Shown here piece by piece: positions 7,111 through 35,332 of a DNA stretch of 35,332 nt. The DNA lies in assembly GCA_017881725.1 (NCBI GenBank), contig JADGQO010000047.1, positions 1 through 35,332 on the forward strand. Direction: 5' to 3'. The DNA comes from Fibrobacteria bacterium (GTDB taxonomy: Bacteria; Fibrobacterota; Fibrobacteria; UBA11236). The notes under the pieces are model-generated. The model made no database searches and had not been told where the DNA came from. It saw only the letters and a program-made list of their open reading frames with translations. The first letter of the stretch is position 1. Each line of letters starts with the position of its first letter. Position numbers and translations under genes: made by a program.

Positions 7111-7282
7111 TCCAATTTCGTTACGAACTGAATTGCCCTTTGCAAGACTCAGGCTGTGCGCTTGGTCTCACCCGTGAAATCTCAAAAGTTTAGTGACTGG
7201 TGTGATTCTAGTCAAGTGAAAAGCGCTGATATAAGTTGTGATAACTCCAAGAGTTACCTTAGGGAACAATAGCCTCAAATGG

Positions 7283-7312
7283 TTGCGGAGGGTTGGGGAA
7301 TTTTGGTATCAT
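7283..7312 (+). promoter_or_regulatory. Promoter candidate of the 7321 gene (possibly leaderless)
   Basis: TTGCGG (7283-7288) and TATCAT (7307-7312) are 18 bases apart. The -10 box ends only 8 bases before ATG 7321, and no Shine-Dalgarno sequence is visible, so the transcript would be nearly leaderless if this promoter is used. Confidence 0.3.
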
Positions 7313-7320
7313 GGCCCTGA

Positions 7321-8241: not shown

Positions 8242-9125
8242 TGGTGGACTTTAGCGTCCTTGGTTTGCTTTAACAGGGAAAGGACCTTATAGGGAACTTT
8301 CAGGCTGCCCGGCGCACTGCGCCCGTCGGACCGCTTCACGTGAAAGTCCGCGCCGCCGGAGCATATCAAATTATGCTTTTGAGCGAAAGTCCGGTACTTG
8401 TGATAGGCTGAACCCGGTTGACCGTGGCAATAGGTTTCAATGCCTAAAAGGCCCCATTCGACCAACAACTCCAACAAATCGTCGCGATTGGTTTTGTAGG
8501 GATGGGCTAAAACCGGAACGCCCCCGGCTTCCAAAATAAGCTGGATGGCCTCCGCAGGGGTGAGTTTGACGGAATCAATTTCGGACATCAGTTCGGACTC
8601 GTTGCCCAAATATTTAGTGAACGCCTCTTGGAAGGTGGAAACGTATTCTTCTTCCATTAATTGCGACGCAATATGCGCCCGGCCCACGCTGCCGCCATGC
8701 GCCCGCGCCATGACCCGCTCATAGTCAACGGAAATGCCCTTGGATACCAAGCGATCCACGATTTTTTTGGCTCGTTCGCGGCGTTTTTCACGGAGTTCCA
8801 CGAGGGTTTGATTAAGACGTAAATGCGTGGGATCGAAAAGGTATCCCAGAATGTGAATGTCACTGCCGCCTAGCGAGGAACTGATTTCCACTCCGGGAAT
8901 CAGCTCAATGCCCAATTGGCGGGCATACTCCTGGCCTTCTTCAAAGGAATCGATATTGTCATGATCGGTGATGGCCATGGCGGACAATCCTTGCTGTCCG
9001 CAGAGTTGAATCAAGGATCGGACATCCAGCCCGCCATCGGAAAGGGTGGAATGCATGTGCAAGTCCACAAAGTCCTTTTCACTGAATTGGTGCCGCAGAT
9101 TTCCCGCGAATTCCGTTGATTTCAT
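8238..9125 (-). CDS. PHP-domain phosphoesterase (YciV/RNase AM-like)
   Basis: The protein (about 295 residues from ATG 9125) carries the polymerase-and-histidinol-phosphatase motifs that bind three metals: DLHMHSTLSDG near the N-terminus, AITDHDN, IPGVEIS, VLAHPY and GGADFH near the C-terminus. Family members YciV/TrpH hydrolyse 3',5'-nucleotide bisphosphates and trim RNA 5' ends. The middle insert (REKRRERAKKIVDRL to SELMSEID) is the usual helical cap of this group. GTG 9143 would add six residues and is a possible alternative start. It is convergent with the gene at 7321 (stops overlap) and divergent from the mannose-1-phosphate guanylyltransferase gene. Confidence 0.88.
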   Translation of the reverse strand: MKSTEFAGNLRHQFSEKDFVDLHMHSTLSDGGLDVRSLIQLCGQQGLSAMAITDHDNIDSFEEGQEYARQLGIELIPGVEISSSLGGSDIHILGYLFDPTHLRLNQTLVELREKRRERAKKIVDRLVSKGISVDYERVMARAHGGSVGRAHIASQLMEEEYVSTFQEAFTKYLGNESELMSEIDSVKLTPAEAIQLILEAGGVPVLAHPYKTNRDDLLELLVEWGLLGIETYCHGQPGSAYHKYRTFAQKHNLICSGGADFHVKRSDGRSAPGSLKVPYKVLSLLKQTKDAKVHH

Positions 9126-21247: not shown

Positions 21248-22012
21248 TCATCCCTTTTCCAATCGCCCTAACAGACGCAGCAGGCCATCCAAGATGGTCA
21301 AGGGATGGGGCGGGCATCCCGGGATATACAGGTCCACGGGCAATTCCCCGTCCACTCCGTTCTTCACCTCTGCTTGACCCATATATGGGCCGCCGGCAAT
21401 GGCGCATGCGCCCACCGCGATGACCAGTTTGGGAGAGGGAATCGCTTCGTAGGCCTTGTGGAGCGCCGAGGACATATTTCCCGTTACCGGGCCGGTGACC
21501 AGGAGACCATCGGCATGGCGCGGCGAGGCCACGAACTGGATGCCGAACCGGCCCAGATCGAATACGATGGTTTGCAAGACATTCACATCCGCTTCGCATC
21601 CATTGCATCCTCCCGCGCTGACCTGCCGGAGTTTCAGGGATTTTCCAAATAGTTTTTTCCGCTTCTCTTCCAAGGCGCCGGCAAGCCGCAGTACTTCCTC
21701 GCCCACCAGAAGATCGTTCCGTTTTCGCGCGGCGAGCCGGTAATCGCTGGAATGCGTTATGGCGCCGCTGGGGCAGGCTTCCTGGCAGTCCGTACAGAAC
21801 AAGCATCGCCCCAGGTCGATTTGGAAATGGTTTTCTGTCGGCAGGATGGCATCGGTGGGACAAGCCTTGACGCATTCCCGGCAGCCATCCGGACACTTGG
21901 ATGGATCGATTTCCGGACGCCCCCGGAAGCGATCGGGCAAATTGACCTTCTCCGACGGAAAAGGGATGGTCCGATAACCCTGTTGCCACCTGGCCAATAA
22001 GGATTTCAGCAT
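21248..22012 (-). CDS. Ferredoxin-small subunit fusion of the Ehr complex (HyfH/HyfI-like)
   Basis: This 254-residue protein joins two subunits that are separate in E. coli hydrogenase 4. Residues about 30-90 hold two [4Fe-4S] motifs: C40-X3-C44-X2-C47-X3-C51-P, with an extra residue in the first gap, and a standard C70-X2-C73-X2-C76-X3-C80-P. Residues about 125-254 are the NuoB/HyfI-type small subunit with all four proximal-cluster cysteines: C136 and C139 (GGCNGCE), C203 (GACAIAGG) and C233 (PGCPPHP). Electrons could thus pass through three clusters on the cytoplasmic arm. GGAGG lies before ATG 22012. It is the last gene of the operon, 43 bases after the large subunit. Confidence 0.88.
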   Translation of the reverse strand: MLKSLLARWQQGYRTIPFPSEKVNLPDRFRGRPEIDPSKCPDGCRECVKACPTDAILPTENHFQIDLGRCLFCTDCQEACPSGAITHSSDYRLAARKRNDLLVGEEVLRLAGALEEKRKKLFGKSLKLRQVSAGGCNGCEADVNVLQTIVFDLGRFGIQFVASPRHADGLLVTGPVTGNMSSALHKAYEAIPSPKLVIAVGACAIAGGPYMGQAEVKNGVDGELPVDLYIPGCPPHPLTILDGLLRLLGRLEKG

Positions 22013-22055: not shown

Positions 22056-23582
22056 TCACAAATCATGACCGCAATAGGAGAGGTTGAAACTTTTATTGCA
22101 CATCGGAAAATCAGAAATCTGTTGCTGGCGCATCGCCACGGCCAGACCCATCCAATTGTGGAACGAGGGATCCACCACCTTATAGCGATGGAACTTTCCC
22201 ACGTCATCGGTCATGGCCACATGGCAGATCTCGCCCCGCCAGCCTTCCACCATCGAGACGGCCACCCGGTTGGCCGGAAGCGCGCCCGCCGGAGTCCGGA
22301 TGGGACCGGGCGGCAGGGCGTTGGCCAAGGTGCGCACATAGGCCACCGATTTCTGGATCTCCATCCAGCGCAGGTAGGCTCGGGCGTTGACGTCTCCGGC
22401 TTCTTGAGTGCATATCGGAATCTTGAAGTCGGCATAGGCCCCGGCGGGAAAATCGCAGCGTATGTCATGGGCCAACCCGCAGGCCCGCGCCGCCGGCCCA
22501 ACCAAGCCCAATTGCACGGCTTGCTCCCGGGTAATTACGCCTACCTTTTCAAAGCGGGAAACCACCGACGAGGATTCCCACAGAAGCTCCGCGGCCCGCT
22601 TCACGTCCCGGAAGGCATTTTCCAGATTGCCCAAGAACTTTTCTTTCCGTTGCTCCTCCAAATCGAAAAGCACGCCTCCCGGCCGGATCATGTCCCTGCC
22701 GAAACGATTGCCGCAAATCAGCGCGGTCAAGTTCAGGAAATCGCCGCGCAATCTTCCGCAAAATGAAGCGGTGGGCAAGAAGCCGATGTCGCCGGCCAAC
22801 GCGCCCAAGTCGCCGGTATGGTTGGCCAGGCGTTCCAACTCCAAGGCCATGGCCCGCAGGGCTTGCGCGCGCGGCGGCACGGCGCACCCGGACAAGCCTT
22901 CCAGCGCCTGGCAATACGCCGTGTAATGTCCGATGGTGGTGTCGCCGGCGAGGGTTTCCATCATGTGCAGGGTTTTTTTATCCGGCCCTGATTGCAAGGC
23001 CCTTTCAATGCCGCGATGCTGGTAGCCGAGAGCGATTTCCAAATGCAAAACGGTTTCACCATGGCAATTGAAACGGAAATGCCCGGGCTCAATGACTCCG
23101 GCATGGATGGGACCGACCGCGACTTCATGGACCTCCTCGCCCTTCACTTGGAAGAAGTCCGTCACGCCGGGTTTCACCGCTTCGTCCGGATTCCAACCCC
23201 AGATATTTGCATGGTTTCCAAAAGGCTGATGGAACCGGATGGGCTTGAGCCAGGGATGCCCCAGGGGCGTGACGCCCCATTGTTCCGCGATCTCGCGCTC
23301 GAACCAATGCGCCGCGGGACAATCCGGCGTGAGCGAGGCGTAGGACTCTCCCACCGAAGCCGCGAGCAGGGAAAGCGTGCCGGATTCCGGATAGGACAGC
23401 ACGCTCATTAATTGCAATCCCTGATCAGTCACCGGATTTCCGAACAAGGCAGAGAGCTTGGCGCCGTTCTTTACGGATGTAATGATGTGATCCCGGAACG
23501 CAGAGAATGGATAAACGGGGATATCGGAGCAATTCGCCGCTTGTGAGTTTTTCAAGTTCAAGGTAACGGGAGACACCATCAT
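22056..23582 (-). CDS. Large subunit of an Ehr complex (HyfG/HycE-like, nickel ligands lost)
   Basis: The 508-residue protein joins a NuoC-like N-terminal part (about 1-120, with FEREIAEQWGV and GHPWLK) to a NuoD/hydrogenase-large-subunit domain (VGPIHAGVIEPGHFRF, LHLEIALGYQHRGIERAL, LELERLANHTGDLG). [NiFe] hydrogenases bind nickel through CxxC near the start and the end. Aligned by eye with HycE (RVCGICGFAH), the first motif is TLAGDTTIGH here: A212 and T215 replace the cysteines. At the C-terminus HycE has DPCYSC; here NLSYCG (500-505), with S502 and G505 instead. Both pairs are gone, so no NiFe site can form. The family name for such complexes is Ehr. ATGA links it to hyfF; the second ATG (23579) is better spaced from GGGAGG. 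Confidence 0.87.
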   Translation of the reverse strand: MMVSPVTLNLKNSQAANCSDIPVYPFSAFRDHIITSVKNGAKLSALFGNPVTDQGLQLMSVLSYPESGTLSLLAASVGESYASLTPDCPAAHWFEREIAEQWGVTPLGHPWLKPIRFHQPFGNHANIWGWNPDEAVKPGVTDFFQVKGEEVHEVAVGPIHAGVIEPGHFRFNCHGETVLHLEIALGYQHRGIERALQSGPDKKTLHMMETLAGDTTIGHYTAYCQALEGLSGCAVPPRAQALRAMALELERLANHTGDLGALAGDIGFLPTASFCGRLRGDFLNLTALICGNRFGRDMIRPGGVLFDLEEQRKEKFLGNLENAFRDVKRAAELLWESSSVVSRFEKVGVITREQAVQLGLVGPAARACGLAHDIRCDFPAGAYADFKIPICTQEAGDVNARAYLRWMEIQKSVAYVRTLANALPPGPIRTPAGALPANRVAVSMVEGWRGEICHVAMTDDVGKFHRYKVVDPSFHNWMGLAVAMRQQQISDFPMCNKSFNLSYCGHDL

Positions 23583-25057
23583 TTACCTCCCAGCGATTCG
23601 GCGGCTGCATGCAGCAAGGCCTGCAAACCCGAGGGAAGATATAATCCGAAAACCAACAGCGGGACGAACAGCAGGAGTGGCGGCAGGATGGAGAGCCATG
23701 CTTCCCGGCGCGGCGCTCCGGCGATTTCCGGATCCGCTTTGCCCAGGGCCATCCGCAGGGAATTGGTGGTCATGCCGACAAAGGAGAGTAACAGGAAAGC
23801 CAGGAACAGCGCCGCCAGAATCCCATGATGCGAATCCAAAGCGGCCCTGAGAATGGTGAACTCGCTGAGGAAAAGTCCGAAGGGCGGGAAACCGGTGGAG
23901 GCCAGGAATCCCGCGACCCAGAGAAAACCGGATACGGGAAGCACATGCACTATGCCTTTGACCAGTAGCGTCGATTTGGTTTTATAAGCCTCGCGGATAT
24001 TGCCGGCCACGAAAAAAAGCATCGGTTTGGCCAAGGCGTTGTTCAAGGCGTGCAGCATGGCGCCGAAAATTCCGGCTCCGCCCAAGCCCAGTCCAAAAAC
24101 CAGGATGCCCATATGCTCCACGCTGGAATAGGCCAGCATGCGTTTGTAATCCGATTGGCCCAAAATGAAAACGCCGGCCAGGAACATGGACAATAGGCCG
24201 AGAAGAATCAAAGGGCCTTGTCCGAATTCTTGCAATCCGGCCGCCGTGCAAACGCGTTGGATGCGCAGGATGCCGAGGAAGGCGCAATTGGTGAGCGCGC
24301 CGGAAAGCAGGGCGGCGACTACGGCCGGGCCTTCGCTATAGACATCGGGTTTCCAGGTGTGCATGGGCGCGAGACCCATCTTGGTGCCGTAGCCCACCAG
24401 CAGGAAAATGAACGCGGCCTTGAGCCAAGGAACGTCCAGCAGCCCCGCCTTTTCGACTAGATCCCCAAGCACCAACGGAATGGCTCCGTGGCCGTGATTG
24501 GCCGCCGAAACGGCGAGCAGGAAATTGCCGAGCAGGGCCAGGGCGATGCCGACCGAGCAGATGAGCAGGTATTTCCAGACTGCTTCCAGGGAGCGGTGAT
24601 GGCGATGGAAATAAATCAGCGGGGCCATTCCCAAAGTGGTTCCCTCCATCGCCACCCACATCATGCCGAAACTTTGGCTGCAGGATACCAAGGTCATGGC
24701 GGAGAGGACGAAGAGCAGGCATCCCACGAAAATCGCTTCCGGGGCGTTGGCGAACCACATGCCTTCCTCCATGTCACGATGCTTACCGGGAATTTCCCGG
24801 CGGAGGTAGGCGATGGAATACAGGGCGCAGGTCAGGAATAATCCGCTGATCACGTTCAGGACCAATCGTCCCGGAGCGTCCAAGGCGAACCAGCCTCCCA
24901 GCACAGGGGCGGGCTGATGAAACCAAGTCGAGAGCGTCAGGGTGAAATGCACGGCCGCCGTCAGCAGCAATTGCAAGCGCCGCAAGGATCCATTCCGGTT
25001 CAGGAAGGCCACGGCCGCCGATGCGAAGGGGATGCAGATGAGCAGGCTGAGAATCAT
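23579..25057 (-). CDS. Antiporter-like membrane subunit, HyfF-like
   Basis: The 492-residue protein is a NuoL/M/N-Mrp family subunit with about 14 membrane helices. Key polar residues for ion transfer are kept: the TM5 glutamate in WVAMEGTTL, the TM7 lysine in GYGTKMGLAPMHTWKPDVYSEGPAVVAALLSG, and the KRMLAYSSVEHMGI and HALNNALAKPMLF blocks with a lysine. HyfF-type proteins lack the long HyfB C-terminal extension, as here. The start at ATG 25057 comes one base after the hyfE stop and opens on the first helix; a longer in-frame start at 25165 lies inside hyfE. The stop overlaps the large-subunit start (ATGA). Confidence 0.9.
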   Translation of the reverse strand: MILSLLICIPFASAAVAFLNRNGSLRRLQLLLTAAVHFTLTLSTWFHQPAPVLGGWFALDAPGRLVLNVISGLFLTCALYSIAYLRREIPGKHRDMEEGMWFANAPEAIFVGCLLFVLSAMTLVSCSQSFGMMWVAMEGTTLGMAPLIYFHRHHRSLEAVWKYLLICSVGIALALLGNFLLAVSAANHGHGAIPLVLGDLVEKAGLLDVPWLKAAFIFLLVGYGTKMGLAPMHTWKPDVYSEGPAVVAALLSGALTNCAFLGILRIQRVCTAAGLQEFGQGPLILLGLLSMFLAGVFILGQSDYKRMLAYSSVEHMGILVFGLGLGGAGIFGAMLHALNNALAKPMLFFVAGNIREAYKTKSTLLVKGIVHVLPVSGFLWVAGFLASTGFPPFGLFLSEFTILRAALDSHHGILAALFLAFLLLSFVGMTTNSLRMALGKADPEIAGAPRREAWLSILPPLLLFVPLLVFGLYLPSGLQALLHAAAESLGGK

Positions 25058-25058
25058 T

Positions 25059-25763
25059 TCAAAGCATTTCCTTTTCCATGAATCCGTCCTCCGGGGACGC
25101 GGGTGCGCTCTGCGGCCAGTCCCCGAGCTTGGAAAGCTGCCGCGTGTCGATATGATCAAATTCACGGTTGATGTGGAAAATGGCTATGCCCATGACGAAT
25201 ACCCCGACGAATACATCCAGCATGACGCCCAGCTCCACCAGCAACGGTTCCTGGTAGGCCATGGCCACGCCGAACGCGTAGATCCCGTTTTCCATGGTCA
25301 GGTATCCGATTACCTGGGTGAGCGCTTTATGCCGGGCCACGATCAGGAACAATCCGGAAAACAAAGTGAAGAGCGACATGGGGACAACCAGATGGGAGGT
25401 GCCCGCCATGGGCCGGGGAAGCTTGAATCCCATCCAGATGGAAAAAGCCAGGGCCAGTATTCCCACCAGCAGGGACAGGGAAAACCCCACCAGGGGTTGG
25501 ATCTCCCGGCTCACGCCCGCCTGGCGCCGGGCCCGGTTAAGGAGAAAGGGGAAGGCCACGCCCTTCAACGCAATCACCCCTGCGGCCAGCGCATAATGCC
25601 GAAATGTATTCCCGTCTTCGCCGGTCATTAACGGCAACAGGCCCAAGAGCACGCCCTGCGCCGAAACAGTGCGGATGAGAATGGTGAACCGGCTGGATCC
25701 CAACAAGGCGAGATCGGACAGCAGCAGGAGGACGAAAATGAAATCGAAGCTTGCGGAATGCAT
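25059..25763 (-). CDS. Membrane subunit HyfE-like (NuoK/MrpC-related)
   Basis: The 234-residue protein has about seven membrane helices and the HyfE hallmark near the C-terminus: QVIGYLTMENGIYAFGVAMAYQEPLLVELGVMLDVFVGVFVMGIAIFHI. The two membrane glutamates (in TMENG and LLVELG) match the paired proton-path glutamates of NuoK-like subunits. E. coli HyfE is of similar length (216). It starts one base after the HyfC stop and ends one base before HyfF, so the genes are fully packed. Confidence 0.9.
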   Translation of the reverse strand: MHSASFDFIFVLLLLSDLALLGSSRFTILIRTVSAQGVLLGLLPLMTGEDGNTFRHYALAAGVIALKGVAFPFLLNRARRQAGVSREIQPLVGFSLSLLVGILALAFSIWMGFKLPRPMAGTSHLVVPMSLFTLFSGLFLIVARHKALTQVIGYLTMENGIYAFGVAMAYQEPLLVELGVMLDVFVGVFVMGIAIFHINREFDHIDTRQLSKLGDWPQSAPASPEDGFMEKEML

Positions 25764-25764
25764 G

Positions 25765-26676
25765 TTAGATCAACTCCACAATGAATGCCAAGGCGGAGAG
25801 TGCGCCTGCGGCCACCAGAAGCTGCGGGACCCGCAGCAAGCGTAATCGTGCCATGGAGGATTCGACCACGCCCACAACCACCGCCAAGGCGGCCATTCCC
25901 AGCAGGAAGCACGCCGTGTCGACCCAGGCATTGCCCGTGCGCACCGGCATGGCCAGCTCGATCAGCAAGGTTCCCAACACCCACATTTTCAAGGCGGCGC
26001 CATATAGGATGAAGGCAAAATCCGGTCCGCCGTGATCCAGGACCATCACCTCGTGGATCATGGTCAGCTCCAAATGGGTATTGGGATCATCCACCGGAAT
26101 GCGCGCGTTCTCCGCCAGGAAAACGATGAAAAAGGACAGTAACACCAACGCTACCATGGATCCGGACGCGCTCCAGGTCCAGGGCCCCGTGCCCGCCAGG
26201 ACGCCCGTCAGGGAGATGGAATGGTTCTCGCCGGCCAAGGCGGCCAAGCCTAGGAAAAGCGCGGGCTCGGCCAGGGCGGAAAACTGGACTTCGCGGCTGG
26301 CGCCCATCCCCTCGAAACTGGAGCCCGTGTCCAACGCGGCCAGCACGGTGAAGAAGCGCATCAGGCCCAGCAAGTAGGCGAACAAGACCAGGTCGCCTTC
26401 GAATCCGAACAGCGCGGGGCGGGATCCCATCGGGACCAGGAAGGTGGCCAGAATGACCGCAGCGAGACCGACGATGGGACCGGCGCGGAACAACCAGGTG
26501 GTGGTGACGCTGTACACCGCATCCTTGCCCAACAGTTTGCGCAGGTCATAATAGGTCTGGAACCACGGCGGACCTTGGCGTCCGGCGAAAAACGCCTTGG
26601 TCTTGTTGATGATCCCCAGCATCAAAGGCGAAAGGCACAGCGCCAACAATAGCGGGAGGATGGATCCGAAAATCAT
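25765..26676 (-). CDS. Membrane subunit HyfC-like (NuoH/EchB-related)
   Basis: The 303-residue protein is the NuoH-type subunit that links the cytoplasmic arm to the membrane arm. It has about eight helices, an N-terminal loop FAGRQGPPWFQTYYDLRKLLGK typical of group-4 hydrogenases, FSALAEPALF, and the signature AENARIPVDDPNTHLELTMIHEVMVLDHGGPD. These match HyfC/EchB better than quinone-type NuoH. ATG 26676 overlaps the HyfB-like stop (ATGA). An open frame continues upstream to 27885 but is only the antiparallel shadow of the HyfB-like gene. Confidence 0.93.
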   Translation of the reverse strand: MIFGSILPLLLALCLSPLMLGIINKTKAFFAGRQGPPWFQTYYDLRKLLGKDAVYSVTTTWLFRAGPIVGLAAVILATFLVPMGSRPALFGFEGDLVLFAYLLGLMRFFTVLAALDTGSSFEGMGASREVQFSALAEPALFLGLAALAGENHSISLTGVLAGTGPWTWSASGSMVALVLLSFFIVFLAENARIPVDDPNTHLELTMIHEVMVLDHGGPDFAFILYGAALKMWVLGTLLIELAMPVRTGNAWVDTACFLLGMAALAVVVGVVESSMARLRLLRVPQLLVAAGALSALAFIVELI

Positions 26677-28691
26677 GTCACCCCCAATTTCCAAATGAGC
26701 AAGGCCAAAAGGGCGAAAGCCACGTACAGGACATAGAGCTGGATCCGGCCATGCTGCACCCAGCGCAGGAATCCCAGCGACCAACGGATGGCGGCGGATG
26801 CGGGCCGGTAAATTTCTTCCAGGGTCGCATCGGGCGTTTCGGAATGGAATGCCAGCGACGCGGGAAAAGGCGAATTGAGGGGCGAAAGGATGGGCGAGAG
26901 ACGCGGCGTCAAGTATTTCCGCGTGCCCAATACGGGACGGAAGAAGGTGGTCAAAGGCTGGGCGAAGGAGGAAGAGGAATATTGCATGCGGACCGTGGGC
27001 AGCGCATAACCGCAACCCCAAGTGGAGGCCGCGGTGATTTTCTTTTTGCGCAACAGCAGTTGCCGTAGACCCGTCACCAATCCCGTCAGGAGGAGGACGG
27101 CCCAAGCCATCAACAGCAGGGATTTCAAAAGCAAATCCGTGGAAGCCGGCCAGGCGGAGGCCGTTGCCAGGGGAAGCCCGGTCAATTGTCCAATCACAGG
27201 CCCGAGCAAGCGTGGCAGCAGGGGCGCGGACAAGCCTATCGCGACGCAAGCCAGCGCCAATGCGCCCATCGGAATAAGCATGGCCGCGTGTTCGCGTGGG
27301 GCGTGTTCGGGCTGTGGCTGCGGGGAGCGGGGCGACCCTAGAAAGACGGTCCCGAATGCCTTGGCAAAGCAGGCCGCAGCCAGTCCGCCGATCAAGGCCA
27401 ATGCCACGATCACCAATGCGCCGCCCACCGGCAAGGACAGATGCCCGTTCTTCAAAGCGCCGAAGGATGCGGAATAAATGAGCAACTCGCTGATGAAACC
27501 GTTCAAGGGCGGAAGGCCGGAAATGGCCACCGCGGCCACTAAAAAGAATGCGCCGGTCCAAGGCATGCGCCGCAGCAATCCGCCCAAGCGATCCATGTCG
27601 CGCGTGCCCGTGGCATGGTTCACCGCGCCCGCGCCCAGAAAAAGCAACCCCTTGAACAAAGCGTGGTTGAGGACATGGAGCAGCCCACCTCCGAAACCCA
27701 GTACCGCCAATACCGGCGAAGCGTGGCTCACTCCCAGCATGCCGAGGCCCAATCCCATGGATATGATGCCGATGTTTTCGATGCTGTGGTAGGCGAGCAG
27801 CCGTTTCAAATCGTGTTGCGCCAAAGCCAGCAGCACGCCCATGACGCCGGAGACGGCGCCCATGGCGACCAAGGTCCATCCCCACCAGGCGGGCGGCGCG
27901 GAGAAGAAGGTGAAGCTACGCGCCAATCCGTAAATGCCGGTCTTGATGATCGCGCCGGACATAAGCGCCGACACATGGCTGGGCGCCGCCGGATGGGCCT
28001 CGGGAAGCCAGACATGGAAAGGCATGAGACCGGCCTTAGCGCCGAATCCCACCAGGCCAAGGAGGAAGAGGAAGGCGAACCCCGTACCGGCGCGGTTACC
28101 CTGGAAGACATCGAACTCCAGGCTCCCGGCGTTCACGTAGAGCATGGCGAAGAATGGGAGCAGGCAAGCCGTCCCGATATGCGTGACCACCAGGTAAAGC
28201 AAGCCTGCCTCGCGCGACTCCTTTTTCCCATCCTCGAACATCACCAGAAACGCGCATGCCAAGGTCATCAACTCCCAGGCGAACAGAAACAGCAGCCCGT
28301 TCCGGGACACAACCACTAGAGCCATGCTTCCCAACATCAAATTGAAGAGGAACCACGGATAACCCAACTTCCTTTGGCTCCGGAACGCCAGCATATATTC
28401 TCCGCCGAAAATCGCCGTTGTGGCTCCCAGGATCAAGATGGGCAATAGGAAAAAAGCGGAGAGCGGATCCAGGCCCACCGAGAAGGCCGCGCCCGGGATG
28501 CTCCAGGCCACGGTCGCGCTTTCCCCATGCCCGGTCAGCAAGGTTTTCAGCGTGGGGACAATGGCGATGGCGCATCCGATCACCGCGCCGCCGGTTCCGG
28601 ACAGGGTGGCCCAGCGCGTGGACTTACCGCTCAACAGCGACAAGATTGCGCTCCCCATCCAAACCGCTTCCGCCGCGATGATTCCCAGCAT
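26673..28691 (-). CDS. Antiporter-like membrane subunit, HyfB-like (second copy)
   Basis: At 672 residues this is a full HyfB/HycC/NuoL-type subunit with about 16 helices. Ion-path residues are present: the glutamate in FAWELMTLACAFLVMFE, the lysine in GFGAKAGLMPFHVWLPEAHPAAPSHVSALMSG, LKRLLAYHSIENIGI, and HVLNHALFKGLLF. The C-terminal extension keeps the HyfB signature WGCGYALPTVRMQYSSSSFAQP before a final lone helix. It follows a paralogue (28696-30681) by a few bases. ATG 28691 was chosen; the in-frame TTG 28694 is one codon earlier. Confidence 0.92.
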   Translation of the reverse strand: MLGIIAAEAVWMGSAILSLLSGKSTRWATLSGTGGAVIGCAIAIVPTLKTLLTGHGESATVAWSIPGAAFSVGLDPLSAFFLLPILILGATTAIFGGEYMLAFRSQRKLGYPWFLFNLMLGSMALVVVSRNGLLFLFAWELMTLACAFLVMFEDGKKESREAGLLYLVVTHIGTACLLPFFAMLYVNAGSLEFDVFQGNRAGTGFAFLFLLGLVGFGAKAGLMPFHVWLPEAHPAAPSHVSALMSGAIIKTGIYGLARSFTFFSAPPAWWGWTLVAMGAVSGVMGVLLALAQHDLKRLLAYHSIENIGIISMGLGLGMLGVSHASPVLAVLGFGGGLLHVLNHALFKGLLFLGAGAVNHATGTRDMDRLGGLLRRMPWTGAFFLVAAVAISGLPPLNGFISELLIYSASFGALKNGHLSLPVGGALVIVALALIGGLAAACFAKAFGTVFLGSPRSPQPQPEHAPREHAAMLIPMGALALACVAIGLSAPLLPRLLGPVIGQLTGLPLATASAWPASTDLLLKSLLLMAWAVLLLTGLVTGLRQLLLRKKKITAASTWGCGYALPTVRMQYSSSSFAQPLTTFFRPVLGTRKYLTPRLSPILSPLNSPFPASLAFHSETPDATLEEIYRPASAAIRWSLGFLRWVQHGRIQLYVLYVAFALLALLIWKLGVT

Positions 28692-28695
28692 CAAT

Positions 28696-30681
28696 TCACC
28701 ACAGCTTCCAGGTTAAAAGGAAAAGCAAAGTTAAGGTGATATACAGAATATAGGCCTGAATGCGGCCGTGTTGGATCCATCTCCAACGTATGAGCCGCGA
28801 ATCGATCCACAGGAATAAAGGCCGGTAGATTTTTTCCAGATAAAGATCGGGAATGCTGTTGGATTGCGACGCGGAACGGGGAAAAAATCCGTCCGCCTTT
28901 TCCTCGGTTTTCCGGCCTTGCAGGATTAACGCGAAGAAACCGGCCAACGGTTGGCTGAAGGATGTCGCGCTGTACTGCATGCGGCGTGTCGGCGCGGCGT
29001 ATCCGCATCCCCACGTGGTCCCGGCCCCGATCTTCCGGCCTCGCAACACGGCCCAACGGATCCCGGCCAACGTTCCCGCCAGCGAGAGAAGGAATCCGGC
29101 GAAAATCGCGAGCGGCCACAGCGAGGTCTGTACGGAGGAAATCTGTTCCAGGATTTCCCGGCCTTCGAATCCGGTAAGCGCCTGTACCATGGGAACGGTC
29201 AGCGTCGCGGCCCAGGGCAGCGCGGGAACCAGCAGAAGGCAGATCAAGGCCAATGCCAACAAGGGTCCGCGCATGGCCCAACCCGGTCGATGAAAATGTT
29301 GCGGCTCCGGTTGCCGGGGTTGCCCCAAATACGCGCCGCCGAAAGCCTTGGAGAAGGCGACCGCGGCGAACCCGCCCACCAGCGCCAGGCCTGCCAGCAG
29401 AACCAAGCTTGGCATCACCACGCCCGATCCCGGAATGCCCCGCATCCGGTAGGCTCCCAGGTAAATCCAAAACTCGCTCAAGAATCCGTTCATCGGAGGC
29501 AAGGCGCATAAAGCCAGTGCGCCCACCAGGAACGTGCCGCCTTCCAAAGGCATCCGCTTCGACAATCCCCCCAGCAGATTGATCCGCCGCGTCCCAGTGG
29601 CGTGGAGTATACACCCGGCATTGAGGAACAACATTCCCTTCGCCATGGAGTGGTTGATGGCGTGCAACAGCGCTCCGCAAAATCCCAAGGTGGCCAGCGC
29701 CGCAGAGCCGCGGCTGACGCCGAGGACGCCGATGCCGATGCCGATGAAAATGATGCCGATGTTTTCCACGCTGCTATAGGCCAGCAGCCGTTTGAGATCG
29801 CTTTGCGCCAATGCGAAAAGGATTCCCAGCAAAGCGGAAGTGAGCCCGATTCCCATCAGGACCCAGCCCCACCATTCCTGGTAATGGCCCAGGAAAGTCA
29901 GCGTCCGCAGCAATCCATAGACTCCGGTTTTCAAAAGCAAGGCGGACATTACCGCGGACACATGGCTCGGGGCCGCGGGGTGGGCTTCGGGAAGCCAGAT
30001 GTGGAAGGGCATGATCCCGGCCTTGGTTCCGAATCCGACGACCGCGCATACGAAGAGGAACCCGGAGAGCCATGCCGATCGCGAGACGCCCGCGAACCCG
30101 GCGAAATCCAAGCTGCCCGCTTCCTGTCCCAGCATGATGAATAATACCAGGAGAAATTCCATGGCGATGTGGGAAGCGACCAGATACATCCAACCGGCCG
30201 TGCGGACGTTTCCCTTGGCATCGTCGAAGAAGACCAGGAACGCCGCGCTCAGGGTCATGATTTCCCAGCCCATCATGAACAGCAGCGCGTTGCGGGAAAG
30301 AAAGACCACGGCCATGCCGGCCATCAACCAGTTGTAGAGGAACCAGGGCATGCCGATATTTTTCGTGTTACGGTAACTTAGGAGATACTCCCCTCCGTAA
30401 ATGGCGGCGAGGCTTCCCACCACCAGGGTGGGCAGGAGGAAAAAGGCCGACAATCCGTCCAGTCCTAGCGAAAACGATCCGGATGGGATCGCCCATGCCG
30501 CCTGGAATTCCAGGACCGGCCCGCCGAATAGCGTCGACAGCACCGGAACCATTCCCGCCACGGATCCCAGCACCACCGAAGCTACGCCGATGCGCGTTGC
30601 CCAAGTTGCGGACGAAGCGAAGAGAAGCGCACCCACGCCGCCCGCCAGCCACACGCCGATAGCCGCCAGCAGCCAATTCAT
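28696..30681 (-). CDS. Antiporter-like membrane subunit, HyfB-like (first copy)
   Basis: The 661-residue protein is a paralogue of its downstream neighbour and shares the block layout: MGWEIMTLSAAFLVFFD, GFGTKAGIMPFHIWLPEAHPAAPSHVSAVMSALLLKTG, LKRLLAYSSVENIGIIF, HAINHSMAKGMLFL, and the C-terminal WGCGYAAPTRRMQYSATSFSQP signature. All transmembrane glutamate and lysine positions usual for HyfB are kept. It should be one of three ion-translocating subunits of the complex (with the second HyfB copy and HyfF). Its ATG overlaps the regulator stop (ATGA), which couples its synthesis to that of the regulator. Confidence 0.92.
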   Translation of the reverse strand: MNWLLAAIGVWLAGGVGALLFASSATWATRIGVASVVLGSVAGMVPVLSTLFGGPVLEFQAAWAIPSGSFSLGLDGLSAFFLLPTLVVGSLAAIYGGEYLLSYRNTKNIGMPWFLYNWLMAGMAVVFLSRNALLFMMGWEIMTLSAAFLVFFDDAKGNVRTAGWMYLVASHIAMEFLLVLFIMLGQEAGSLDFAGFAGVSRSAWLSGFLFVCAVVGFGTKAGIMPFHIWLPEAHPAAPSHVSAVMSALLLKTGVYGLLRTLTFLGHYQEWWGWVLMGIGLTSALLGILFALAQSDLKRLLAYSSVENIGIIFIGIGIGVLGVSRGSAALATLGFCGALLHAINHSMAKGMLFLNAGCILHATGTRRINLLGGLSKRMPLEGGTFLVGALALCALPPMNGFLSEFWIYLGAYRMRGIPGSGVVMPSLVLLAGLALVGGFAAVAFSKAFGGAYLGQPRQPEPQHFHRPGWAMRGPLLALALICLLLVPALPWAATLTVPMVQALTGFEGREILEQISSVQTSLWPLAIFAGFLLSLAGTLAGIRWAVLRGRKIGAGTTWGCGYAAPTRRMQYSATSFSQPLAGFFALILQGRKTEEKADGFFPRSASQSNSIPDLYLEKIYRPLFLWIDSRLIRWRWIQHGRIQAYILYITLTLLFLLTWKLW

Positions 30682-31391
30682 GAAACGGATTCCTCAAGCG
30701 ATTTCACCGCGGATTCGGTTATGAAGGTTTTTTCAATCCGGCTGGCCTCGGCCAGAATATCATCACGCAAAGCCTGCCGCTGGATGGCGGATTTGAAACC
30801 TTCATCGCGCAACGCGAAGGAGAGTCGCGAGAGCAGGTGAAGATGCGCTCTAACGGTCGGACTGATGAGGCCGAACAAGGCATGCACGGGTTTACCGTCC
30901 AAAGCGTCGAACGCCACCGGTTTTTCCAGGAAGCATAGCGATATGATGGGCTGGGAAACGTGCAGGACCACGGGATTGCGCACATGAGGGATCGCGATGC
31001 CGTCCCCGATTCCAGTGGAAGCCAACTCCTCCCTGGCCAGCAGCACCCTCAAGAGGAACTCGCGATCCACTCCGTCTGGAAGTCGCATGTGCTCAACCAA
31101 TGATTTGAGCACCGAGCTTTTCGTATCGCCTTCAAGCCGATAAAAAATCCCGCCGCTTTGGATCGACTCCACCAAACTCGGGATAGGCAACCCGCTGCTG
31201 GTAGGCTCATGGAAAATATCCGATGAGACATTGAGTTTCCTGCTCGTGGCCCACTCGAGAAGTTCAGCCCGATTGAAGCGGTATTGATCATTGACGCGAT
31301 AGGCAGGCAGGAATCCCTGGTTGATCCATCGGTACACGCTTTTTTCAGAGATGCTGAGGAGTCCGGCCGCTTCTTTTACCCCGAGTTGCAT
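30678..31391 (-). CDS. HTH-EIIA fusion regulator of the minus-strand Ehr operon
   Basis: The 237-residue protein starts with an excisionase/MerR-like DNA-binding domain (about 1-52: VKEAAGLLSISEKSVYRWINQGFLPAYRV, then FNRAELLEWATSR). A linker (about 53-85) leads to a PTS EIIA domain of the fructose/PtsN type (about 90-230), with the phospho-histidine H136 in TGIGDGIAIPHVRNP and the conserved HLHLLSRLSFAL. EIIA domains accept phosphate from HPr or NPr, so DNA binding may respond to PTS state; this is inference. It has only about 30 differences from the divergent copy at 32470 over the first 222 residues (4 in the HTH domain). The stop overlaps the first HyfB-like gene. Confidence 0.85.
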   Translation of the reverse strand: MQLGVKEAAGLLSISEKSVYRWINQGFLPAYRVNDQYRFNRAELLEWATSRKLNVSSDIFHEPTSSGLPIPSLVESIQSGGIFYRLEGDTKSSVLKSLVEHMRLPDGVDREFLLRVLLAREELASTGIGDGIAIPHVRNPVVLHVSQPIISLCFLEKPVAFDALDGKPVHALFGLISPTVRAHLHLLSRLSFALRDEGFKSAIQRQALRDDILAEASRIEKTFITESAVKSLEESVS

Positions 31392-31439
31392 TTATTCCCT
31401 AGGTTCTCGATAGGATTCTTTATTAGGACTCTTTAACCC

Positions 31440-31468
31440 ATAATATATTTCATGTCCATAAATGTCCA
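31440..31468 (-). promoter_or_regulatory. Promoter with direct-repeat operator, minus-strand Ehr operon
   Basis: On the minus strand TGGACATTTATGGACAT (31468 to 31452) holds two TGGACAT copies spaced 10 bases, one helical turn. The first TGGACA serves as a -35 box (31468-31463), followed after exactly 17 bases by TATTAT (31445-31440) as -10. The same element with the same geometry precedes the divergent regulator, which makes a chance match unlikely. The start codon is about 50 bases downstream. Confidence 0.65.
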
Positions 31469-31475
31469 CGTAAAA

Positions 31476-31496
31476 ACGCGTCAATGTTTGACGTGT
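31476..31496. promoter_or_regulatory. Inverted repeat upstream of the minus-strand Ehr promoter
   Basis: ACGCGTCAA-TGT-TTGACGTGT is a 9-bp dyad with one mismatch per arm and a perfect core CGTCAA/TTGACG (31479-31484, 31488-31493). It ends 8 bases upstream of the -35 box, where an activator would bind. It is absent from the divergent promoter. A further 13-base palindrome, GTGACC-C-GGTCAC, lies at 31505-31517. Confidence 0.4.
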
Positions 31497-31551
31497 ATGA
31501 AATTGTGACCCGGTCACCTTCACCGGATTTAGCAGTAACTGTAGCGTTACC

Positions 31552-32322
31552 CTAATCACTCCACACCGTAGCGCGGATAGCGCCTGCTTTTACAACGCAA
31601 TCGCTTTCTTTGATCCAACACGTGAGACAACCGGAACCGATTTCCCTGTTCGCCACCATCCTATACCCATACGGCATTTTCCCCCCGAATCCGTGATAAG
31701 TGACCACGCGGGTTCCTACCGGAAGGTTCATGAGCTTTTGCTGGACGACCTCCACGTAAAGGCAAAAGTATTCCGGCTTCAATGGAACGGTTTCATCGAT
31801 TGCCGGCAGGCATACGTTTTCAGAAAACGGATTGTAAAGGTAAAACGCATTATAGTCCGACCAATCAAGGTCCATCATATTGCCATGGATAAATTCCACA
31901 TTCGAAATTTTCGCGCTTCTCGCAATGGCTTGGCCTTCGGCCAGTAGGTGGGGGCGCTGATCGATTCCTGCGAAAGGAACGGAATGCCTGGCGGCGCCGA
32001 TGAGACAAAATTTTCCCGGCCCGCAGCCGATATCCAGCACCTTGGTCCCGGGACTTGCAACGAGCATCTCCGCGGCGCAGATGGCCACGCGCACCGGAGT
32101 CCAGTGGTCGGAAGAAAGTTGCCTTGTCTCCCATGCAAATACCTCATCGAAATCACGATCGGAGGGTTGGGGGCCGCCGCTTAAGGCGCGAAAAATGCCC
32201 TGGGATTTGTTCCGGACATTTTGAAGCTGGGCGTCATTCATCTTTTGCATCGGGTTATGCTTGTCCCATTCAGGTTGCGGCTTTCGAATCCACGGCCAAC
32301 GAAGAGAAGGCATTATGCTCAT
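31552..32322 (-). CDS. Class I SAM-dependent methyltransferase, unknown substrate
   Basis: The 256-residue protein has the Rossmann SAM-binding core: motif I VLDIGCGPGKFCLIGA (about 94-109), an acidic strand end in FAGIDQRP, then NVEFIHGNMMDLDWSDYNAFYLYNPF, where YNPF sits at the catalytic-loop position. The segment SDHWTPVRVAICAAEML before motif I resembles Dot1-like or ribosomal-protein methyltransferases, but I cannot name the substrate. It lies between the two divergent regulators, on the same strand as the minus Ehr operon and upstream of its promoter. Starts at ATG 32322 and 32313 are both possible and neither has a strong ribosome site. Confidence 0.75.
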   Translation of the reverse strand: MSIMPSLRWPWIRKPQPEWDKHNPMQKMNDAQLQNVRNKSQGIFRALSGGPQPSDRDFDEVFAWETRQLSSDHWTPVRVAICAAEMLVASPGTKVLDIGCGPGKFCLIGAARHSVPFAGIDQRPHLLAEGQAIARSAKISNVEFIHGNMMDLDWSDYNAFYLYNPFSENVCLPAIDETVPLKPEYFCLYVEVVQQKLMNLPVGTRVVTYHGFGGKMPYGYRMVANREIGSGCLTCWIKESDCVVKAGAIRATVWSD

Positions 32323-32373
32323 GGGGAATGTTTTCTACGGACCTAAGGGCTTGGCGGAATGGATAAATTCGGT

Positions 32374-32417
32374 TGGACATTTATGGACATATATTTTAAA
32401 ATATCAATAGTGTCCAT
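32374..32417 (+). promoter_or_regulatory. Promoter with operator repeats, plus-strand Ehr operon
   Basis: TGGACATTTATGGACAT (32374-32390) is identical to the element before the minus-strand regulator. Its first TGGACA is the -35 box; TAAAAT (32397-32402) follows after 17 bases as the -10, inside a perfect 14-bp palindrome ATATTTTAAAATAT (32391-32404). A third, inverted copy TGTCCAT lies at 32411-32417, just past the expected transcription start, a typical repressor position. The regulator ATG is at 32470. Confidence 0.65.
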
Positions 32418-32469
32418 TTGAGGCTACTCTTGGGAGTCGAAAGCCGAAAAAGGCCACTTGGGGAGACGG

Positions 32470-33180
32470 ATGCAATTAGGCGTTAAAGAAGCTGCAAACC
32501 TTCTAAATATTTCCGAAAAAAGTATTTATCGCTGGATCACCCAGGGATTCCTACCCGCATACCGTGTAAACGACCAGTATCGATTTAATCGCGCCGAGCT
32601 CCTGGAATGGGCGACAAGCCGGAAAATCAACGTCTCCTCCGAGATTTTTCTCGAACCGACCAGCAGCGGCATGCCTATCCCGAGCCTGGTCGAATCGCTC
32701 CAAGCCGGGGGCATTTTCTATCGCATCGAAGGCAAGACGAAAGCCTCCGTTCTCCAATCCGTGGTTGAGCACATGCGTCTTCCGGATGGCGTGGACAGGG
32801 AGTTCGTGTTCCGGGTCATCCTAGCCAGGGAGGAGTTGGCGTCCACGGGAATCGGGGACGGCATTGCCATCCCTCACGTCCGGAATCCGGTCGTCCTTCA
32901 TGTGGCCCAACCCTTGATCACCTTGTGCTTTCTGGAAAAACCGGTCGAGTATTCCGCGCTGGATGGCAAGCCGGTGAGCGCCCTGTTCGGCCTCATTAGC
33001 CCGACGGTACGGGCCCACCTGCACCTACTCTCCCGGCTTTCCTTCGCGCTTAGGGATCCGGGATTCAAGTCCGCGATTCTCCGGCAGGCCCTTCGCGAGG
33101 AAATTCTCGCCGAAGCCGATCGCATCGAAAAGACATTCGCCCCTACCCACTCCGAAGTCCCGGAGAAAATAAGCCGGTGA
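32470..33180 (+). CDS. HTH-EIIA fusion regulator of the plus-strand Ehr operon
   Basis: The 236-residue protein has the same two domains as its divergent twin: an excisionase/MerR-like HTH (about 1-52, VKEAANLLNISEKSIYRWITQGFLPAYRV) and a PTS EIIA domain with the phospho-histidine H136 in TGIGDGIAIPHVRNP. Differences from the twin cluster in the last 15 residues and at a few surface positions of EIIA; in the HTH only residues 10, 13, 19 and 24 differ. Because both promoters carry the same 17-bp element, each protein may act on both operons. ATG 32470 has GGGGAGA upstream and was preferred over TTG 32458. Its TGA overlaps the GTG of the HyfB-like gene (GTGA). Confidence 0.85.
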   Translation: MQLGVKEAANLLNISEKSIYRWITQGFLPAYRVNDQYRFNRAELLEWATSRKINVSSEIFLEPTSSGMPIPSLVESLQAGGIFYRIEGKTKASVLQSVVEHMRLPDGVDREFVFRVILAREELASTGIGDGIAIPHVRNPVVLHVAQPLITLCFLEKPVEYSALDGKPVSALFGLISPTVRAHLHLLSRLSFALRDPGFKSAILRQALREEILAEADRIEKTFAPTHSEVPEKISR

Positions 33181-35156
33181 TTGTTTTTTTACTGAGCATC
33201 CCCATTCTCCTGGCGGGAGCCGCCCTTTCCGCTATGCTGCGCTCCAACCGGACCAGCGGAATCGTGTCCCTTCTCAGCCAGGCTGCCGCAACTATCCTGG
33301 TCACGGCGAGCATCGCTCCCGTGCTACGAGGCAAAACCGTGCTTGCAGGCGTCCTTCCCTGGGCCGCGCCCATCCACAGCATTTCCTTCCGCATCGATGC
33401 CCTCGGTGCATTTTTCCTCTCATGGTCGCTTCCGATGACCTTGCTGGGAACGATCTACGCAACCGGCTACCTCAAACCCTATTTCGACAAGGGTCGGCAT
33501 GGCGGACCGCATTTCGCTTTGCTGAACATGACCCAGCTCGCCTTCGTTCTGATTTATTCCGTGCAGAATGCCCTGGTCTTCATTTTGGCTTGGGAAATAG
33601 CGGCCGTGGCCGCATGGCTGCTTGTCATTTGGGATTATTCCAACCAGAAGATCCGGTTCGCGGGATTCAACTACCTCGTCTCAACCCATGTGGGAATGTT
33701 CGTCCTCGTCGCCGCTTTCATGCTGATGCACAGCAAAACGGGATCCTTGGACTTCAAGGATTTCGGAGCGTTCTTGACCCAACCCAGTTCGGTTCGCGGG
33801 GCGCTCTTCCTCTTGCTCGGCGTGGCGTTCGCGCTCAAGTCCGCCTTCTTCCCATTCCATACCTGGCTGCCCAGGGCCCATTCCGCCGCGCCCGCCCACG
33901 TGTCCGCGTTGATGTCCGGCGTGATCCACAAGGCAGGCCTGTTCGGATTCCTGCGCTTTACCTTGCTGATGGGCAAGCCGGATGAATGGATGGGATGGTC
34001 CGTCCTGGCATTCGGCGCCCTTTCCGCTTTCTTCGGCGTCCTCAATACCGCCCCGCAGCGCGATCTGAAACGGATGCTCGGATATTCCTCCACGGAAAAT
34101 GTCGGCATCGCGGCGATGGGTTTCGGAATCGGGTACTTGGGATGGACATGGAATTTGCCGGGATTGGCCTTATGCGGATTTGCCGGAGGCATCCTCCACC
34201 TGGTGAATCACGCGTTTTTCAAATGCCTATTGTTCTACGCCGCCGGATCCATTTACCGCGCGGTCCACTCGGTCGACTTGGAACGATTGGGAGGGCTCGG
34301 TAAAACCCTGCCGCGTACGGCGGTGTTTTTCCTGATCGGAGGAATGGCCATTGCGGGCTTGCCTCCCCTGAATGGGTTCCTCAGCGAATTCATCATCTAC
34401 TCCGGACTCCTCTCCGGAGGGGCGACCACCGCACAGGGCAACTTGCTTTTCGTCTTAGCCGCAGCGCTGTTGGCTTTCGTAGGAGGCGTGAGCGCCTTTT
34501 CCATGACACGATCTTTTGGCCTGGCGTTTCTGGGGCAACCTCGCGATCCCCATCTGCATCTGCACCAAGGCAAAGAGCCGTCGCAATCGATGCTCGGCAC
34601 GATGACGTTGCATGCGCTTGGGGTTCTGGCCTTGGGATTGATACCCGGTCTGGGCGGATTATTCATCCGATCGACCTTGAGATTGTTTCCAATCCTGGAT
34701 GGGAAATCGGTAGCTCTTCCCCTGCCCGCCCTGATGAATTGGCTCTCGCCCTTGCTTGCGGTCCTCATCGCCGCATCGCTGCTGATCGCCTGGTTGAAAT
34801 CGAAGGGGGCCCGCCTTAGCCAGACTTGGGCTTGCGGATATACGGCGGTTTCGACGCGAATGCAATATACCGGAAACTCCTTCGCGCGACAGTTCGCCGC
34901 GATCTGGTCGGCTTTTCTTCCCGTCCTTAGGCGGGAACAGCTCCCGAGCGAACTATTCCCACAACGTCCGAGCCATCTGGCAACCCATCACGTGGACGCG
35001 GTGGAGCGCCGCATCTTCGAAGCCTTGGGCCAAGGCGAGGAACTCATGACCCAGGCTTCCGATCGCATCTCCGAGCAATCCCACATAGGATTCGCCGCAG
35101 GGCTCGTGGCACTCATTATCATCGTGGCGCTGCTCTTCGGTGGGTTCGCGAAATGA
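33177..35156 (+). CDS. Antiporter-like membrane subunit, HyfB-like (plus-strand operon)
   Basis: This 659-residue protein starts at GTG 33177, overlapping the regulator stop. It has the HyfB layout: LAWEIAAVAAWLLVIWD (TM5 glutamate), ALKSAFFPFHTWLPRAHSAAPAHVSALMSGVIHKAG (TM7 lysine), LKRMLGYSSTENVGIA, HLVNHAFFKCLLFYAAG, and the C-terminal WACGYTAVSTRMQYTGNSFARQ signature. It differs more from the two minus-strand HyfB copies than they do from each other: for example PRAHSAAPAHV instead of PEAHPAAPSHV. It may therefore belong to a different Ehr subtype. Its stop overlaps the next gene (ATGA). Confidence 0.92.
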   Translation: MIVFLLSIPILLAGAALSAMLRSNRTSGIVSLLSQAAATILVTASIAPVLRGKTVLAGVLPWAAPIHSISFRIDALGAFFLSWSLPMTLLGTIYATGYLKPYFDKGRHGGPHFALLNMTQLAFVLIYSVQNALVFILAWEIAAVAAWLLVIWDYSNQKIRFAGFNYLVSTHVGMFVLVAAFMLMHSKTGSLDFKDFGAFLTQPSSVRGALFLLLGVAFALKSAFFPFHTWLPRAHSAAPAHVSALMSGVIHKAGLFGFLRFTLLMGKPDEWMGWSVLAFGALSAFFGVLNTAPQRDLKRMLGYSSTENVGIAAMGFGIGYLGWTWNLPGLALCGFAGGILHLVNHAFFKCLLFYAAGSIYRAVHSVDLERLGGLGKTLPRTAVFFLIGGMAIAGLPPLNGFLSEFIIYSGLLSGGATTAQGNLLFVLAAALLAFVGGVSAFSMTRSFGLAFLGQPRDPHLHLHQGKEPSQSMLGTMTLHALGVLALGLIPGLGGLFIRSTLRLFPILDGKSVALPLPALMNWLSPLLAVLIAASLLIAWLKSKGARLSQTWACGYTAVSTRMQYTGNSFARQFAAIWSAFLPVLRREQLPSELFPQRPSHLATHHVDAVERRIFEALGQGEELMTQASDRISEQSHIGFAAGLVALIIIVALLFGGFAK

Positions 35157-35332
35157 TCTGGGTACAGGCCGCGAACGCGTTAATCCTTTTGCTGATGCCA
35201 TTCGCGCTGATCGGAATTTTGAACCGGGTCAAATCCTTATGGTCCGGCCGCAAGGGGCCGCCAATCCTCCAGTCGGCGTTCGACTTGGCCAGACAGTTCA
35301 AGAAGGCTTCCGTCTATAGTACGACGGCTTCA
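35153..35332 (+). CDS. HyfC-like membrane subunit, N-terminal part (cut by window edge)
   Basis: Sixty codons are visible, from ATG 35153 to the window end. A first membrane helix (NALILLLMPFALIGILNRV) is followed by SGRKGPPILQSAFDLARQFKKASVYST, matching the loop GRQGPPWFQTYYDLRKLLGKDAVYS of the HyfC-like protein at 25765-26676. The ATGA overlap with the HyfB-like gene repeats the packing seen in the minus operon. It shows that a second complex of the same kind continues past the window. Confidence 0.85.
   Translation, partial: MIWVQAANALILLLMPFALIGILNRVKSLWSGRKGPPILQSAFDLARQFKKASVYSTTAS

Follow-up and report, generated by a model that had tools for sequence, protein, structure and literature searches.

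Ehr complexes resemble complex I and the group 4 hydrogenases and have a large subunit without nickel ligands (PMC6688271, PMC6349859); their expression, assembly and function need testing (PMC6349859). The parts of these two papers that are drawn on here name neither a regulator nor an operator. We have analysed two Ehr operons in a draft genome of a Fibrobacteria bacterium (assembly GCA_017881725.1; 5.2 Mb in 235 contigs, 90% complete). The window, that is, the whole stretch of 35,332 nucleotides under analysis, is contig JADGQO010000047.1 (C184). It carries two divergent genes for proteins joining a helix-turn-helix (HTH) domain of the HTH_17 family to an EIIA domain, REGm on the minus and REGp on the plus strand, with a methyltransferase gene between them, so that the operons they head are divergent and not adjacent. 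As in the described Ehr complexes, both operons encode large, small, NuoH-like and antiporter-like subunits, and the large subunit has no nickel ligands. Unlike in the descriptions cited (PMC6688271, PMC6349859), each operon is headed by an apparently dedicated HTH-EIIA protein, and two Ehr complexes share one DNA site.

The regulators have partial counterparts among known proteins. BldC, a small MerR-like winged-HTH protein, binds direct repeats one helical turn apart, head-to-tail and in varying number (PMC5859096). The proteins studied here likewise have a small winged HTH domain and direct repeats with this spacing, but they are fused to EIIA and their half-site is TKGACA, not AATTXXXX(C) (PMC5859096). 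The likeness to BldC is an analogy, since phmmer of the regulator HTH against PDB chains returned only RacA, a weak match at E 0.1. With EIIA-Ntr (PtsN) they share the EIIA fold and its conserved histidine; unlike PtsN they carry a DNA-binding domain in the same chain and fall below the NCBIfam PtsN cut-off (61.9-63.2 bits against 138.7). PRD-type regulators carry EIIA domains, but in Pfam the present regulators have no PRD match. Among the titles listed in searches of open-licence PMC papers, none refers to regulation of Ehr or hyf genes by an HTH-EIIA protein, which is weak evidence of absence.

With a probability of roughly two in three, we read the HTH_17-EIIA protein and its operator as an autoregulating module, dedicated to Ehr operons in many phyla, of which an old copy heads a second Ehr operon in this genome. 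Recurrence of the arrangement is a main support. A scan with REGm in genome_contigs gave at least 548 relatives, of which the best 80 were taken. Ehr genes lie downstream on the same strand in 74 of these 80 loci, HyfB being the first of them in 73 and the full set being present in 54. The 74 loci spread over 16 named phyla (names are NCBI's; 8 loci are unassigned), foremost Planctomycetota (22), Verrucomicrobiota (9) and Myxococcota (8). When the earliest possible start is used throughout, HyfB overlaps or touches the regulator stop in 24/79 loci, starts 1-30 bp from it in 28/79 and lies further away or is unresolved in 17/79, while in 10/79 no HyfB frame is directly next to the regulator. 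Within the phylum of the window, 12 of 167 genomes have a large-subunit match at E 1e-80; in the other 11, the regulator precedes HyfB in five, five are cut by the contig or start inside the operon, and one (L127) has no regulator. The preliminary description of the window had implied that an HTH-EIIA gene beside hyfB was rare. This does not hold: a regulator heading an Ehr operon is the usual state, and the unusual features here are the site and the presence of another complex, divergently encoded and headed by a paralogous regulator. The coupling that it reported stands, with four-base overlaps between regulator stop and hyfB start on both sides (30681-30678, minus; 33177-33180, plus).

Both regulators exceed the Pfam cut-offs for HTH_17 and PTS_EIIA_2. 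They had been called near-identical, which is a little strong: they are highly alike, with 86.5% identity over 223 residues, 83.0% in a full alignment including the tails, 75% at the DNA level and 92% within the HTH domain. The AlphaFold model of REGm (mean pLDDT, the predicted local distance difference test score, 89.8) has a winged HTH, consisting of two helices, wing strands and a helix, followed by EIIA, and the best fold matches are EIIA-Ntr structures (3urr, 1a6j). Beyond EIIA the model places a long C-terminal helix (residues 209-236) that may be a dimer handle. A GIAxPH-type motif, with the phospho-acceptor histidine, is present in 86 of 87 regulators, L120 lacking it. HPr was searched for in 43 of 52 regulator genomes, chosen by hand, and was found in 41 of them, including this genome and that of a same-genus sister species (G005); it was not found in G175 and G212.

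Both regulator promoters carry an identical 17-bp site, TGGACATTTATGGACAT, in unlike flanks (17.5% and 33% identity), which supports the earlier suggestion of selection on a shared DNA site; of the two matches in the search for it, one is present by construction. With at most one mismatch, TGGACATNNATGGACAT occurs in this genome solely at the two regulator promoters and in the sister species once, at its regulator, while four genomes without the regulator (G001-G004) have 0, 1, 0 and 0 occurrences. A third exact TGGACAN4TGGACA in this genome, on contig C109, lies inside a 186-residue frame and was taken as chance.

The site recurs among relatives. In 81 upstreams, from 79 loci plus the two window promoters (L082, without upstream DNA, was omitted), TTGACA is among the most enriched six-base words (46 upstreams against 9.6 expected), and TGGACA or its complement is found in 45 (9.4-10.3 by chance). 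Half-sites TKGACA spaced exactly 10 bp apart occur in 18/81 upstreams against 0.0 in shuffles, which preserve base composition only, and a half-site followed after 16 to 18 nucleotides by TANNNT occurs in 27/81 against 0.30, with TANNNT exactly 17 nt away at 19 of 64 half-sites. TKGACA faces an inverted TGTCMA at 28 bp in 10 loci and at 38 bp in nine. A held-out test of the resulting profile used 36 new upstreams (43 regulator starts minus three in the training set and four duplicates). Of these, 21 scored above the 99th percentile and 18 above the 99.9th percentile of 1,493 control windows; one or more of the dropped duplicates have their upstream among these windows, making the control harsher. 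We regard three observations as new: the direct-repeat site TKGACA-N4-TKGACA, predicted to cover the -35 box from which the regulator gene itself is transcribed, the confinement of its 17-bp form to two promoters in this genome, and an excess of likeness between the regulators over that between their complexes.

Several findings weigh against a common operator and a regulator devoted to Ehr genes. The motif was derived from the same 81 upstreams, so that only the 36-upstream test is held out, and 15 of those 36 fail, all five other scored regulators of this phylum (L119, L120, L122, L123, L126) among them. In the set of 81, 25 upstreams score below 8.8 and have no site; L015, whose HTH is 78% identical, has none either. 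By the profile, the site is also absent from two named isolates with Ehr, Desulforhabdus (L061) and Pontiella (L089). Six of the 80 loci have a regulator without Ehr genes (L013, L018, L027, L030, L045 and L090; the contig of L045 ends 222 bp beyond the regulator). Among orphan copies, L027, L090 and L190 (the last in G503) lack the site, and L018 and L030 reach middling scores of 12.0 and 13.1. Upstreams without a site may reflect changed specificity, because the score rises as the HTH domain comes closer to that of REGm (Spearman 0.48, n = 81, with no correction for kinship). The site is also present where no Ehr gene follows: L013 scores 27.1, and orphan copies of two genomes, G311 and G479, score 19.1 (L181) and 20.8 (L182). 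At L013, in the sister species G005 (6272-8670), the nearest named relative of the regulator, with 84% identity and nearly the same operator, heads a SulP-family transporter gene with a STAS domain; no Ehr large subunit was found in that genome, 95% complete, at E 1e-60.

Since six loci have a regulator without Ehr, the regulon may be wider than Ehr. The orphan regulators that were read have unlike neighbours. In Singulisphaera (L027, 10001-12266), a carbonic anhydrase frame lies about 550 bp downstream of a regulator without Ehr and without an operator by the profile. A bicarbonate or anion-transport regulon, prompted by this frame and the SulP gene of L013, was considered and given up as a general reading. 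What the 80 loci share most widely apart from Ehr genes are frames lying antisense to these or to regulator genes and, by our own reading, members of common families such as kinase-like frames (11 loci) and ABC-type ATPase frames (six loci).

In the mechanism that we propose, the HTH_17-EIIA protein would be a dedicated regulator of Ehr operons acting on its own promoter. Autoregulation is the simplest reading because it is the promoter of the regulator gene that carries the site, including at several copies without Ehr genes behind them. Protomers, spaced by one helical turn, would line up head-to-tail on TKGACA-N4-TKGACA and so cover the -35 box and the spacer, and TGTCMA repeats often appear to mirror the site beyond the -10 box. 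Such a placement would repress the regulator-plus-Ehr operon; overlap with the -35 box suggests repression but is no proof of it. As to the signal, phosphorylation is the likely one, because EIIA keeps its histidine and resembles EIIA-Ntr, and HPr is present: phosphoryl flow through HPr to the EIIA histidine would set the DNA-binding state and couple Ehr expression to energy or carbon status. The second, divergent Ehr operon of this genome would stand under an old copy of regulator and operator. REGm and REGp should each act on both operons, because both promoters have the same 17-bp site and the two HTH domains agree at 92% of positions. Tentatively, the two paralogues may form a cross-wired switch on a shared operator that balances or chooses between two Ehr complexes by phosphoryl flow, the regulator-operator pair being portable onto unlike membrane energy or ion systems, namely two Ehr types here and SulP in the sister species, where no Ehr was found.

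The sign of regulation admits a variant compatible with the rest of this account, in which the protein is a MerR-like activator rather than a repressor. MerR-type activators bind in the promoter spacer, where the second half-site lies. They act on an over-long spacer, and the predicted spacer here is a normal 17 nt, with half-sites that coincide with the -35 box and recur beyond the -10 box; activation is thus a possible but doubtful variant.

Each operon encodes a predicted Ehr-type complex: the large and small subunits resemble those of complex I, and there is neither a nickel site nor, among the genes of the operon, an NADH module. The minus operon runs REG-HyfB1-HyfB2-HyfC-HyfE-HyfF-HyfG(NuoCD-like)-HyfHI(NuoI/B-like), from 31391 down to 21248. 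The plus operon crosses the window end within hyfC. Contig C116 of the same genome starts with the last 127 bp of the window (100% identity; the sole other occurrence found in the assembly), and it is on this overlap that joining the two contigs rests. C116 (L006, 1-5163) encodes hyfC, a frame at the place of hyfE without a Pfam match, hyfF, hyfG and hyfHI, so extension past position 35332 does supply the plus operon with large and small subunits. Neither of the outcomes named as refuting the earlier description, a lack of recurrence in other genomes or a plus operon without these subunits, has come about. Both operons thus hold large (NuoCD) and small (NuoB) subunits together with NuoH-like and antiporter-like membrane subunits. 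The large-subunit alignment has just two near-invariant cysteine columns, the cysteine pairs that hold nickel and iron being absent. No large subunit has a nickel-hydrogenase Pfam match, and the single NCBIfam NiFeSe match, to the minus large subunit, reaches 18.3 bits against a cut-off of 600; scores are also far below the NuoD cut-offs. No NuoEFG-like gene was found among the assigned genes of both operons, the genes flanking the operons not having been scanned. The genome has two further complex I-type large subunits, on contigs C56 and C22.

The plus complex is divergent, yet it does not look like a wreck. Of the near-invariant columns, it retains 55/61 in HyfC, 92/101 in HyfG (one histidine lost) and 47/56 in HyfHI, and the minus complex 61/61, 99/101 and 55/56, the losses being 24/218 and 3/218, respectively; all near-invariant cysteines (9/9 of HyfHI, 2/2 of HyfG) are kept by both. 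Identity between the two complexes is 32.5% for HyfF, 35-36% for HyfB, 40% for HyfG, 44-45% for HyfC and 46-47% for HyfHI, and the hyfE pair gave no match to each other. Close kin of the plus complex were not found: the best identity was 45% in 167 genomes of the phylum and 46% in 392 genomes of one Planctomycetota set.

The regulators are far more alike than the complexes that they head. Against 86.5% between regulators, the plus HyfB is 34.7% identical to HyfB1 and 36.4% to HyfB2, as had been described. Over 2,207 locus pairs, regulator identity tracks large-subunit identity; at the 41.7% seen here between large subunits the fit expects a regulator identity of 51% (48% with plus-complex pairs omitted), and 83% is observed, z 5.2, which is only a yardstick since locus pairs are not independent. 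The gap between regulator and large-subunit identity is 41.3 points; when the plus complex is left out, the widest gap in 2,142 pairs is 18.9. With HyfC the case is less clear-cut: here the gap is 41.6 points, but the widest elsewhere, 27.6 (L017-L035), exceeds that for the large subunit.

The duplication behind REGm and REGp is old. Third codon positions are 43.9% identical, with pS (silent sites) 0.76 and dN (amino acid-changing sites) 0.10, and the divergence is about that of either from the sister-species copy, third positions being 40-45% identical overall. Silent sites are saturated, for which reason a recent duplication was dropped, and the protein is held by strong purifying selection. 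In a quick tree, REGm, REGp and the L013 regulator form one clade (support 100), in line with the duplicated regulatory module proposed earlier. Duplication and site selection had been offered as alternatives; both are supported, and they are not mutually exclusive.

How the second complex came under its regulator is less certain. We favour, without taking it as proven, that a copy of the regulator captured a second Ehr operon. The other account, which we think rather unlikely, is that the whole regulator-plus-Ehr operon was duplicated, after which the regulators were constrained by DNA site and signal while the plus complex drifted fast. Saturated silent sites would leave time for such drift, and the plus complex does sit on a long branch (3.53); no row compared exceeds 46% identity with its large subunit or 49% with its HI subunit. 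Both trees were built by a quick method only, the Ehr tree from 37 of 58 usable rows and the regulator tree from 41 of 87 sequences (partly chosen, partly random). The Ehr tree places the minus complex with Planctomycetota rows and close to those of Myxococcota (86, not starred) and joins the plus complex to L127 (99; with the tool's long-branch warning). Against whole-operon duplication, L127, which belongs to the same class of Ehr operons, lacks the regulator; by our own reading, a divergent alpha/beta hydrolase-like frame reaches its HyfB, and no regulator was found in its genome (G054) at E 1e-25. A tree that keeps the two complexes together is disfavoured when L127 is included (approximately unbiased test, p-AU 0.038, with long branches in play) and not rejected when it is left out (p-AU 0.35). 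Moreover, the 10 regulator pairs with at least 80% identity have large subunits 64.2-83.5% identical. Ongoing gene conversion, which the position of both regulators on one contig might suggest, is highly improbable and largely refuted: third positions are no closer than to the sister-species copy, and the operator flanks are unlike. That the layout is an assembly artefact of a draft in 235 contigs, with the plus operon over two of them, is scarcely credible, as both regulators and the methyltransferase gene lie within one contig, the 127-bp overlap has no mismatch and no second one was found, and in the sister species, too, a methyltransferase gene lies close to the regulator (this relative, 65% identical over 215 residues, lies beyond the regulator-SulP pair).

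Second copies of the regulator are uncommon elsewhere. In a search covering 50 of the 79 loci, 46 of 50 genomes have one copy, three a tandem pair within one operon and one two separate copies; in a Verrucomicrobiota set the regulator is present in 51 of 387 genomes and in two copies in four of these 51. In G311, G479 and G503 the second copy heads no Ehr gene within the stretch read (in G503 only 1.4 kb follow). In another genome, G213, a second copy heads a HyfB gene, and there regulators (79%) and HyfBs (75%) have diverged alike. The pair in the window differs from all of these, with regulators 83-86.5% and subunits 33-46% identical. The two regulators of G503 (L198/L199), one heading Ehr genes and the other with none in the stretch read, share 88% identity. 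Tandem HTH-EIIA pairs head one Ehr operon in the Planctomycetota loci L029, L058 and L063, and are 58-63% and 47-50% identical to REGp. At L193 (G377), two regulators, 61% identical, lie at opposite ends of one Ehr operon and face each other.

The features are collected in Table 1. REGp has an alternative start, TTG at 32458. The methyltransferase gene is divergent from REGp, and the REGp operator, lying between both starts, could serve both.

Table 1. Features of the two Ehr operons and their predicted control sites, in window coordinates
Feature	Position	Strand	Evidence or remark
REGm, regulator 1, HTH_17 + PTS_EIIA_2, heads minus Ehr operon	30678..31391	-	Pfam; AlphaFold model; EIIA-Ntr best fold matches
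HyfB1, antiporter-like subunit	28696..30681	-	Proton_antipo_M; ATGA overlap with REGm
HyfB2, antiporter-like subunit	26673..28694	-	Proton_antipo_M
HyfC (NuoH-like)	25765..26676	-	NADHdh
HyfE (NuoK-like)	25059..25763	-	Oxidored_q2, E 3.9e-5, under curated cut-off
HyfF, antiporter-like subunit	23579..25057	-	Proton_antipo_M
HyfG, NuoCD-like large subunit	22056..23582	-	Complex1_49kDa + Complex1_30kDa
HyfHI, NuoI-NuoB-like iron-sulphur + small subunit fusion	21248..22012	-	Oxidored_q6 + Fer4
REGp, regulator 2, HTH_17 + PTS_EIIA_2, heads plus Ehr operon	32470..33180	+	Pfam; 86.5% identity to REGm
HyfB of plus complex	33177..35156	+	Proton_antipo_M; GTGA overlap with REGp
HyfC of plus complex, start only	35153..35332	+	continues on C116
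Methyltransferase gene between REGm and REGp	31552..32322	-	Methyltransf_31
Operator of REGm (predicted), direct repeat TGGACA-N4-TGGACA, then T	31452..31468	-	
Operator of REGp (predicted), identical 17 bp	32374..32390	+	
Inverted third half-site, TGTCCA on plus strand, beyond REGp -10 box	32411..32416	-	
Predicted REGm core promoter, TGGACA-N17-TATTAT	31440..31468	-	-35 box = first half-site
Predicted REGp core promoter, TGGACA-N17-TAAAAT	32374..32402	+	-35 box = first half-site

An EIIA-bearing regulator with a defined DNA site, standing beside Ehr genes in 16 named phyla, would offer a handle on when these complexes are made. The regulator predicts a link between Ehr and phosphoryl flow through the phosphotransferase system, and the DNA site may be used to seek further members of the regulon.

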